Below the pieces are notes generated by a model that saw only the letters and a list, made by a program, of their open reading frames with translations, searched no databases and was not told where the DNA came from. This document shows positions 45,511-48,624 of a DNA stretch of 56,258 nt, in pieces; position 1 is the first letter of the stretch; every line of letters starts with the position of its first letter. The translations under genes and the position numbers were made by a program. Source of the stretch: an uncultured Bacilli bacterium (lineage in GTDB: Bacteria; Bacillota_I; Bacilli_A; RF39; UBA660); NCBI GenBank assembly GCA_944332435.1, contig CALVJW010000006.1, positions 1-56,258 on the forward strand, in the 5' to 3' direction.

Positions 45511-45538
45511 GAAAAAAGATATGAAATTTCACATCTTT
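45511..45538 (-). terminator. Intrinsic terminator of nrdDG
   Basis: AAAGATGTGA/TCATATCTTT (one G-U pair) with T run on the minus strand, overlapping the nrdG stop. Confidence 0.75.
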
Positions 45539-46097
45539 AAATATAAACGCCTTCAACCTTTTTTCTATTATCGTTCTGTGGTAATTCTAAATCAATTTCA
45601 TTAAGACAAACTTGTCCTTTTGCCAAACTTTCTTTTACGTTAATAATTCTTTGATTTCTAGAACCTTTAAATTTTAAACTATAACTTTTTTCAGCTAAAA
45701 TAAACCTTCCATCAATTAATACATCAATTTCTTTTAAAAATGTTAAAATCATTGGTTTTGTTTTGCTCAATGTTTGTAATTCCTCAAAAGTATAACCGGT
45801 ATAACACCAAACATTCATTCCAATTTGATGGGCATGTTTTGCTATTTCATAACATGCTTCTGGTTGACACATAGGATCTCCACCAGAAAAAGTAATACCA
45901 TCTTGACTTGTTAATTGATCTAACTCTTCATTTATTTCGTCAACATCAATTAAGGCTCCATCTTCAAAACTATGTGTACTTGGATTATGACACCCTAAAC
46001 AATTATGTGGACATCCTTGTGTCCAAATGACGGTTCGAATGCCAAGACCATCTACAATGCTATCTGTTTGCAACGTACTAGCTAAACGGATTTTCAT
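45537..46097 (-). CDS. nrdG: Anaerobic ribonucleotide reductase activating protein NrdG
   Basis: Radical SAM activase that places the glycyl radical on NrdD. The 186-residue product has the iron-sulfur motif CPHNCLGC (C-x3-C-x2-C, in TQGCPHNCLGCHNPST), GGDPMCQPE (SAM-binding GGEP-type) and the terminal FKGSRNQRIINV. Start at ATG 46097, two bases after the stop of the glycyl-radical gene; no clear SD, so translation is probably coupled. An in-frame ATG at 46115 lies inside that gene. Needs strict anaerobiosis. Confidence 0.94.
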   Translation of the reverse strand: MKIRLASTLQTDSIVDGLGIRTVIWTQGCPHNCLGCHNPSTHSFEDGALIDVDEINEELDQLTSQDGITFSGGDPMCQPEACYEIAKHAHQIGMNVWCYTGYTFEELQTLSKTKPMILTFLKEIDVLIDGRFILAEKSYSLKFKGSRNQRIINVKESLAKGQVCLNEIDLELPQNDNRKKVEGVYI

Positions 46098-46099
46098 AG

Positions 46100-46282
46100 T
46101 TAATTTGCAGGGCAAACTTTTGGACTTTCTTCTTTCATTACTGCTTTTACACCACTATGTTTTACACGATCTTTTTCTTCCGCACGTTTTGCATTATTAA
46201 AACGTTTTACATCTCCTGCTAAATAACCTGTTACTCTTCTAATTCTTTCAAATTCAATTCCTTCTCCAACTACTTTTTCCAT
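46100..46282 (-). CDS. Stand-alone glycyl-radical C-terminal segment of NrdD (60 aa)
   Basis: The 60-residue product contains FERIRRVTGYLAGDVKRFNN, then KRAEEKDRVKHS: the very end of class III RNR, where the Gly of R-x-x-G-Y carries the radical. In most NrdD proteins this is fused to the main chain. Here the main gene stops 17 bp upstream in another frame and this gene has its own SD (GGAAAGGG) and ATG 46282. So it is a separate subunit that must join NrdD for catalysis, comparable in idea to YfiD for PFL. It also has a tail with VCPAN. Similar stand-alone proteins probably occur in other gut Firmicutes. Confidence 0.85.
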   Translation of the reverse strand: MEKVVGEGIEFERIRRVTGYLAGDVKRFNNAKRAEEKDRVKHSGVKAVMKEESPKVCPAN

Positions 46283-46299
46283 AATATTCCCTTTCCTTT

Positions 46300-48624
46300 C
46301 TAACATCCACATTGTACTTCACGTACTTTTTCAAGTGGCACACTTTCAAATTCTTTTCGTCCACATCCAGGACAAACATCTCCAATTACTCCAACATATC
46401 CACAAACTGGATCACGATCAACTGGATGATTAATAGCTCCATAACCAATACCTGATTCTTTCATTAGTCGAATCACACTTTCAAATGCATCAACATTCAT
46501 CGCTGTATCACCATCTAACTCTATATAGCTAATATGCCCGCCATTCGTAAGAGCATGATATGGTGCTTCCACCTCAATTTTATGTTTAATACTAGTATTG
46601 TAATATACTGGTACATGGAATGAATTCGTATAATATTCTCGGTCTGTTACTCCCTTAATCTTTCCATAAATAGCCTTATCTATATTAACAAAACGACCAG
46701 ATAATCCCTCAGCTGGAGTTGCAATTAACGTAAAGTTTAAGCGATATTCCTTCGCATATTCATCTGCTTTATTCCTCATAAATGAAATAATTTCTAATCC
46801 TAATTTTTGTGCTTCTTCACTTTCACCTTGATGTTTTCCAATAAGTGCTACTAATGATTCAGCAAGACCAATAAACCCAAATGTTAAACTTCCGTGTTTT
46901 AATATTTTGCGTAAACGATCTGATGGTTTTAACTTATCCCCATCTGTCCATACACCTTGTCCAAGTAAAAATGGAAAATTATAATTATGTTTCGAACATT
47001 GTACTTCAAAACGTTCCAATAATTGATCTTTTACAAGTTCCATTTCTTCGGCTAATTCTTGATAAAAACCTTCCATATCTGCTTTGTCACGTTCTTTTAA
47101 GCAAATTCCATGCTTAATAGCAATACGAGGTAAATTAATTGACGTAAAAGATAAATTCCCACGCCCACCAGTTGTTTGATTATTTAAATCAGTAACATCA
47201 CTCATTACTCTAGTACGACAACCCATATAACCAACTTCGGTACGATAATCTCCCTCTTTATAATATTCTAAGTTAAATGGTGCATCAATAAATGAAAAGT
47301 TTGGAAATAAACGTTTTGCTGATACTTTGCACGCTAATTTAAACAAATCATAGTTCTTATCCTCAGGATTATAATTGATACCTTCTTTTACTTTAAAAAT
47401 AGAAACTGGGAAAATTGGTGTTTCACCTTTTCCTAATCCAGCATCAGTTGCTAGTAAAAAGTTTTTAATTACCATTCTTCCTTCACTAGAAGTATCAGTA
47501 CCTAAGTTAACTGATGAAAATGGTACTTGTGCTCCAGCACGAGAATGCATCGTATTTAAATTATGAATAAATGCTTCCATTGCTTGATAAGTAATTCTTT
47601 CTGTCTTTTTCAATGCATTTTCATAACTCTTCATAAATAAACGCTTAATTTGTTCTGATTCTTTATAAATTGGTTGAAATAACGTAATATCTAAATCAAT
47701 TGTCGTCAGTTTATCTACTTCTCTTGCAATTCGCTCCATACTAATAAATGATAGTAAATCACTATAATCTAATAAATCATAAAGTTGTTGCTTAAATTGT
47801 TTCTTAAATGTTTTTAATACTCCTGGAGCCATGTAATAATCAAATGCTGGAATTGATTGTCCTCCATGTTGATCATTTTGATCTGATTGAATAGCAATCG
47901 CTGCAAGAGCACTATATGACATAATATCATTTGGTTCTCTCAAATGACCATGTCCTGTTGAAAAACCATTTTTAAATAATTTATCTAACTCTATTTGCAT
48001 ACAAGTCGTAGTTCCCATTGCAAGGAAATCCATATCATGAATATGAATATCACCATTATCATGCGCATCCGCATATTTCTTTTTCATTAAATATGATTTA
48101 GCAAATTCTTTGGAAATGGTACTTCCATACTGAAGCATTGTACCCATCGCACTATCTCCATCGATATTTGCATTTTCTCTTTTAATATCCTCTTCTCCAG
48201 CTGACTTAAGACCTAACCCTTCAATTGCTTTTAAAAACTTATGTGTTTTTTTCTCATCAAAGAATAATTGTCTTGATTGATTTCTTCTCTCACGATATTC
48301 AGAAAAAGAAGCATAAACATCATCATAACCTTTTTTCTTTAATTCTTCTTCAATCATATCTTGAATTTCTTCAATCTTAATTTTTTCTTTATCTTTATAC
48401 TCTTTTTGAATTCGTTTCATCACACTATGATATACTTTTTGAATATCCTTTTCTGTATAAGTGTATACCTTATCTATACTCTCTTCTTCTTCATCTACTT
48501 TCGGTTTGACACTATCAAATCCCTTTTTTATTGCAAGAGCAATTTTAGTTCCATCAAAATCTACTTTTTTTCCATTTCGCTTAACAACGAATAGTGTTAA
48601 TTTTTGTTCGTCTACTTGGACCAT
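46300..48624 (-). CDS. nrdD: Anaerobic (class III) ribonucleoside-triphosphate reductase, large part
   Basis: Reduces NTPs to dNTPs without oxygen. The 774-residue product has an N-terminal ATP-cone (VVKRNGKKVDFDGTKIALAI, about 10-105), DIHIHDMDFLAMGTTTCMQIELDKLF, DQNDQHGGQSIPAFDYY, SRAGAQVPFSSVNLGTDTS and the zinc-type Cys end CGYVGVIGDVCPGCGR plus a final CGC. It stops before the R-x-x-G-Y glycyl-radical loop, which is encoded by the next gene. Start ATG 48624 follows AGGTGA; promoter at 48655-48683. Operon nrdD - radical peptide - nrdG. Confidence 0.95.
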   Translation of the reverse strand: MVQVDEQKLTLFVVKRNGKKVDFDGTKIALAIKKGFDSVKPKVDEEEESIDKVYTYTEKDIQKVYHSVMKRIQKEYKDKEKIKIEEIQDMIEEELKKKGYDDVYASFSEYRERRNQSRQLFFDEKKTHKFLKAIEGLGLKSAGEEDIKRENANIDGDSAMGTMLQYGSTISKEFAKSYLMKKKYADAHDNGDIHIHDMDFLAMGTTTCMQIELDKLFKNGFSTGHGHLREPNDIMSYSALAAIAIQSDQNDQHGGQSIPAFDYYMAPGVLKTFKKQFKQQLYDLLDYSDLLSFISMERIAREVDKLTTIDLDITLFQPIYKESEQIKRLFMKSYENALKKTERITYQAMEAFIHNLNTMHSRAGAQVPFSSVNLGTDTSSEGRMVIKNFLLATDAGLGKGETPIFPVSIFKVKEGINYNPEDKNYDLFKLACKVSAKRLFPNFSFIDAPFNLEYYKEGDYRTEVGYMGCRTRVMSDVTDLNNQTTGGRGNLSFTSINLPRIAIKHGICLKERDKADMEGFYQELAEEMELVKDQLLERFEVQCSKHNYNFPFLLGQGVWTDGDKLKPSDRLRKILKHGSLTFGFIGLAESLVALIGKHQGESEEAQKLGLEIISFMRNKADEYAKEYRLNFTLIATPAEGLSGRFVNIDKAIYGKIKGVTDREYYTNSFHVPVYYNTSIKHKIEVEAPYHALTNGGHISYIELDGDTAMNVDAFESVIRLMKESGIGYGAINHPVDRDPVCGYVGVIGDVCPGCGRKEFESVPLEKVREVQCGC

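Follow-up and report, generated by a model that had tools for sequence, protein, structure and literature searches.

We found that a 56,258-nucleotide stretch of DNA from an uncultured Bacilli bacterium (hereafter, the window) carries three genes on its minus strand, in the order nrdD, small gene, nrdG, which in our judgement (a probability of roughly 0.86 for this reading as a whole) encode a class III ribonucleotide reductase whose catalytic and glycyl-radical chains are separate proteins. NrdG would generate the radical on Gly19 of the small chain, the radical would then be passed to a cysteine of the large chain, and the arrangement would have originated by partial duplication. Class III reductases have been described with the storage radical on their own chain. 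The presence of two genes, their complementarity and conservation, the standing of the split enzyme as the sole detected reductase in most genomes, and the geometry of a structural model are computed results. The features of the locus are as follows:

48001..48003, minus strand: codon of the second presumed active-site cysteine, Cys208 (TTTC), invariant in 32 relatives
47218..47220, minus strand: codon of the presumed thiyl-radical cysteine, Cys469 (MGCR), invariant in 32 fused and split relatives
46300..48624, minus strand: nrdD, large chain (774 aa, stop codon TAG), with ATP-cone, catalytic barrel and zinc site and without a glycyl-radical motif
46303..46356, minus strand: C-terminal nrdD tail KEFESVPLEKVREVQCGC, with a Cys cluster at its end; putatively a degenerate counterpart, in register, of the segment TEADGVKFERIRRITGYL of fused NrdDs
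46289..46296, minus strand: Shine-Dalgarno (SD)-like sequence GGAAAGGG 5' of the small gene
46100..46282, minus strand: small-chain gene, a stand-alone glycyl-radical segment (ATG at 46282, TAA at 46100, 60 aa, MEKVVGEGIEFERIRRVTGYLAGDVKRFNNAKRAEEKDRVKH...)
46226..46228, minus strand: predicted radical glycine codon, Gly19 of the small chain, in a T-G-Y-L motif that matches the place of the radical glycine in solved NrdDs
45537..46097, minus strand: nrdG, radical-SAM activase (CPHNCLGC at 45990-46013; TIGR02491 146.7 bits, cut-off 126.1)

A sequence-only reading of this DNA had claimed that the 774-residue NrdD ends in a Cys-rich segment lacking R-x-x-G-Y, and that a separate 60-codon gene with its own SD sequence, in another frame and before nrdG, carries the missing motif. 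The sequence bears this out: the large chain terminates in ...CGYVGVIGDVCPGCGRKEFESVPLEKVREVQCGC, the small gene contains RRVTGYLAGDVKRFNNAKRAEEKDRVKH with the radical glycine at residue 19, the SD-like string is in place, and the coordinates agree with the frame and order given. A mechanical open reading frame call extends the small gene to 46312 (70 aa); we prefer 46282 because relatives share a conserved start of the form ME/KK...VGEG, sometimes with a stop codon just upstream.

Profile searches divided a single enzyme between the two chains. The 562 positions of Pfam NRDD were partitioned exactly, 1-533 to the large chain (E = 9e-187; 622 bits against a cut-off of 26, with the ATP-cone also matched) and 533-562 to the small chain (E = 2.5e-7, above the gathering score); as judged from these matches, the partition is far above chance, and it was found again across the family. 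The large chain also matched NCBIfam PRK07111 (1003 bits, cut-off 764) and has the active-site signature TTTC208, MGC469R and N151-A-N153 (the NxN flap), all invariant in a 32-row alignment; the roles of Cys469 (thiyl radical) and Cys208 are our assumption from what is known of T4 NrdD. All 99 of 99 distinct small chains of the family keep G-x-G and F-x-R-I-R-R-x-T-G-Y-L without change. Among solved structures P. copri NrdD comes nearest, and the small chain aligns to residues 707-740 of that enzyme (8p23). Of the further criteria for NrdD membership, that of a dedicated NrdG activase is fulfilled by the next gene, and that of a radical motif on the same chain fails, since the motif is encoded separately; the window enzyme is thus filed as a two-chain variant and no ordinary class III member. 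Membership of the small chain in the PFL/YfiD family was rejected: NRDD was its sole Pfam match up to an E-value of 1, with no match to Gly_radical (PF01228).

The split was suspected of being a lineage-wide design in gut Firmicutes, and the counts support this. The small protein found a match in 141 of 288 genomes of the order, and the motif lay in a short stand-alone frame in 125 of these 141 and in a fused frame of ~780-810 aa in the other 16. We read 109 loci with the motif downstream of a truncated nrdD. Across them the gap between the nrdD stop and the ATG of the small gene ran from -7 to 59 nt (median 16), leaving a remainder of 2, 1 or 0 on division by 3 in 38, 38 and 33 loci; start and SD-like sequence are conserved (a permissive pattern places the latter within 20 nt of the small gene at 102 of 109 loci), while the frames differ. 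nrdG, recognised by motif, follows the small gene directly in 92 of the 109. Translational coupling of nrdD and the small gene is likely. The named relatives are mostly uncultured gut Bacilli, including Candidatus Faecimonas, Onthousia and Pelethosoma, and Faecimonas has been assigned to GTDB order RF39 (PMC8035907).

These counts bear on two explanations in which the split would be more apparent than real. One reading frame might have been broken by an error of sequencing, assembly or annotation, and the window's genome is indeed a draft (66% complete); yet a second, independent genome of the same genus encodes an identical small protein in an identical arrangement, and more than 100 loci from many studies have varied gaps. 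We therefore treat an error as ruled out by independent genomes, and neither of the outcomes that had been named as refuting the split, a single-base indel or a split in this assembly only, holds. Alternatively, programmed frameshifting, read-through of the stop or hopping might still yield a fused protein, as short gaps and the third of loci in which both genes share a frame with a stop between them would allow; however, because the three frame offsets are about equally frequent, a general mechanism of this kind is strongly disfavoured, the stop is TAA or TAG, the small gene has an SD-like sequence and an ATG ahead of it, and fusion would duplicate the FERIRR-like segment. We reject programmed frameshifting as highly improbable.

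Beyond the zinc motif, the tail of the large chain aligns without gaps to the segment of fused NrdDs that leads into the radical loop (tail consensus GRKEFEGVPLERIKNLDCNC vs. fused segment GRTEADGVKFERIRRITGYL), and all 88 of 88 distinct family tails beat their shuffles at p<0.05 in fixed register. The same pre-loop segment occurs again, intact, in the small chain. Since the segment is present twice, once decayed and once intact, the split is most simply explained, and is likely to have arisen, by partial duplication of the nrdD 3' end with later decay of the first copy, although the segment on which this rests is short; that first copy would survive as today's tail, and the second would have become the small gene. 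In the column of the radical glycine, tails most often have Cys (52 of 87). At least one tail Cys is found in 100 of 109 split loci and at least two in 79, vs. none of 28 fused proteins, and the C-terminal Cys cluster of the window (46303-46356) is absent from fused and phage relatives. Whether these cysteines supply an extra zinc ligand, a redox tail like that of classes I and II, or nothing is unknown; a review notes that the C-terminal Cys pair is missing from modern class III enzymes (PMC4390871). The Cys tail cannot be a universal essential feature, as 9 of the 109 loci and the phage split tails lack Cys. On a tree of 133 NrdDs (FastTree) the split and fused states cluster but require 6 changes (shuffled mean 22), so a single clean origin of the split is not supported; the deepest family branches are split and fused clades are nested, with the branching order unsure owing to several long branches. 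Re-fusion and repeated splitting are both possible.

We also scored other reductases in the genomes. The class I/II reductase profile, PF02867, exceeded its cut-off in 1 of the 78 split genomes vs. 11 of 14 control genomes, and gave no match in the window's own genome (66% complete) or in a 94% complete genome of the same genus. All 78 split genomes contain the truncated NrdD and ~15 contain a further full or partial NrdD, so that, second copies counted, ~62 of 78 show no reductase besides the split NrdD. As most of these genomes are draft MAGs, a second reductase may have gone undetected. From its standing as sole detected reductase we infer that the split NrdD very probably works, in the absence of activity, binding or radical data; binding of the chains, activation by NrdG, radical transfer and exchange of damaged small chains are likewise inferred.

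In one relative (L062) the two genes lie in one frame with a single TAG between them, and we modelled it read through as one chain. AlphaFold2 gave a mean pLDDT of 83 and a pTM of 0.80; the small-chain part (778-832) reached a pLDDT of about 73-85 except at its end, and confidence was lowest, <50, at the junction (769-777). Residues 118-819 superposed on P. copri NrdD (8p2s_B; Z 44.9, rmsd 2.5, 634 aligned), so that the modelled small chain occupies the position that the glycyl-radical domain has in the solved enzyme. The chains were joined through the read stop codon, the alignment includes fused relatives, and affinity is not addressed. In the P. copri enzyme ATP leaves the radical domain ordered, whereas with dATP it is disordered or undetectable, and the authors of that study expect a rigid-body movement (PMC11226230). 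A detachable radical domain is plausible given this mobility, and by analogy dATP might release the small chain.

Three observations go beyond the sequence-only reading: the in-register vestigial tail segment described above, longer stand-alone versions in other Bacilli, and a distribution among phages. Other Bacilli families encode a protein of 90-117 aa in which a ~55-aa N-terminal part precedes the same radical segment, apart from a fused NrdD, which is present alongside most of these ~95-aa versions. In five loci (L271-L275) a desulfoferrodoxin (superoxide reductase) gene lies directly before the ~95-aa gene; by analogy, this neighbour hints at an operon for repair of oxygen damage to NrdD, and a parallel may be drawn with YfiD, which repairs oxygen-damaged PFL (PMC8683613). 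In one genome (G319; L261, L050, L278) an NrdD stops short immediately ahead of nrdG, a ~95-aa radical protein is encoded by itself at another chromosomal site, and a second NrdD is fused; this split is likely to be independent of the others.

These longer versions, together with phage copies that lack an NrdD, agree with the idea that the small protein is mainly a YfiD-like repair part that replaces oxygen-cleaved radical ends. For the window we consider this unlikely: the large chain there lacks a radical loop, which obliges the small chain to be a permanent subunit and leaves repair by exchange as a possible side effect. The missing loop also resembles decay, and the large chain might be a failing pseudogene with the small protein a decoy that occupies NrdG; against this, none of the residues presumed to be catalytic varies and ~62 of 78 genomes yielded no other reductase, and we give it next to no credence. 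An obligate two-chain enzyme remains the best reading of the window.

A scan of IMG/VR with the small-protein alignment returned 319 relatives. Among the best 80 of these the motif was detected in 77, all of them stand-alone frames, mostly of 44-100 aa, with neighbours that include terminase small subunit, RusA, tape measure, baseplate and endolysin genes; NrdD-type stand-alone radical proteins are common in phages of anaerobes (viral contigs L181-L260). No NrdD was found in 46 of 50 viral records with the small gene, records that are possibly fragments. In the other four (L206, L211, L231 and L244) the NrdD lacks the radical loop, a small gene lies nearby, and the tails, such as GRREGEAVSEEKLESLKKKYKLR, resemble the bacterial ones; in L231 (1253-4477) the split NrdD carries a LAGLIDADG homing-endonuclease (intein-like) insert. 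In L282 and L283 a truncated NrdD is overlapped by an 87-aa version of the radical protein. One IMG genome (2561511128) holds four prophage records (L199, L200, L212 and L224), each with a lone radical protein, and among phage-like genes of genome G187 there is a 96-aa protein (L158:2869-3156) with its own N-terminal part and the NrdD radical segment. In three host genomes with a chromosomal split NrdD, an additional small gene stands alone in a prophage-like region (L160, L163, L164). Prophage copies were close to the host variant in 3 of 4 host genomes (0.94-0.97 identity, rank 1-5 of 75) and ranked 45 in the fourth, a resemblance in sequence that is suggestive only. PHROGs has no family of its own for the small protein, matches to which go to NrdD families. 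The phage copies are perhaps a mobile spare part. We further consider, as a tentative proposal that falls slightly short of an even bet, that the radical-bearing end of NrdD is an exchangeable mobile module which phages supply in trans to re-arm, hijack or outcompete the host reductase, and that the split host enzyme arose from, or stays open to, this traffic.

The window enzyme shares with known NrdDs (P. copri, T4, PRK07111) the fold, ATP-cone, presumed catalytic cysteines, NxN flap, zinc site, radical motif and NrdG; it differs in placing the glycyl-radical segment on a second polypeptide and in its Cys-rich new C-terminus, with only three Cys in the zinc motif of the large chain, as in its fused relatives. 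The sequence-only reading had likened it to YfiD of pyruvate formate-lyase, which stands as an idea and fails as family membership. Like YfiD/GrcA and phage T4 Y06I (PFL cofactors), the small chain is a stand-alone glycyl-radical protein that completes a catalytic chain and is phage-borne too; unlike them, it is NrdD-type, about 60 aa vs. ~14 kDa, and obligate in the window, where there is no spare and the partner has no radical domain of its own. Split class II NrdJa/NrdJb of P. aeruginosa is also a two-chain reductase, but a B12 enzyme, and its PF02867 core found no match in the window's draft genome. Fragmented phage nrdD genes (phiAS4, Lactococcus phage 949, T-even) likewise come in several pieces, with breaks due to introns, inteins, homing endonucleases or recent gaps (PMC3653736), whereas the window split is old and at a domain boundary. 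We found no published NrdD that is split at its radical domain, nor any account of stand-alone NrdD radical domains in phages, with few subscription papers covered.

The two-chain layout is a variant of a known enzyme, and the unexpected element is a phage-borne mobile radical subunit. A likely role can now be given to a phage small gene without a PHROG family of its own in the collection searched, and a phage strategy is suggested in which ~150 bases are carried in place of a whole reductase. A natural two-chain version parts the radical carrier from the catalyst, so that activation, radical transfer and allosteric control could be studied piecewise, and it suggests how an essential enzyme that is sensitive to oxygen might be repaired, by swapping a 60-residue chain and not a 90-kDa one.
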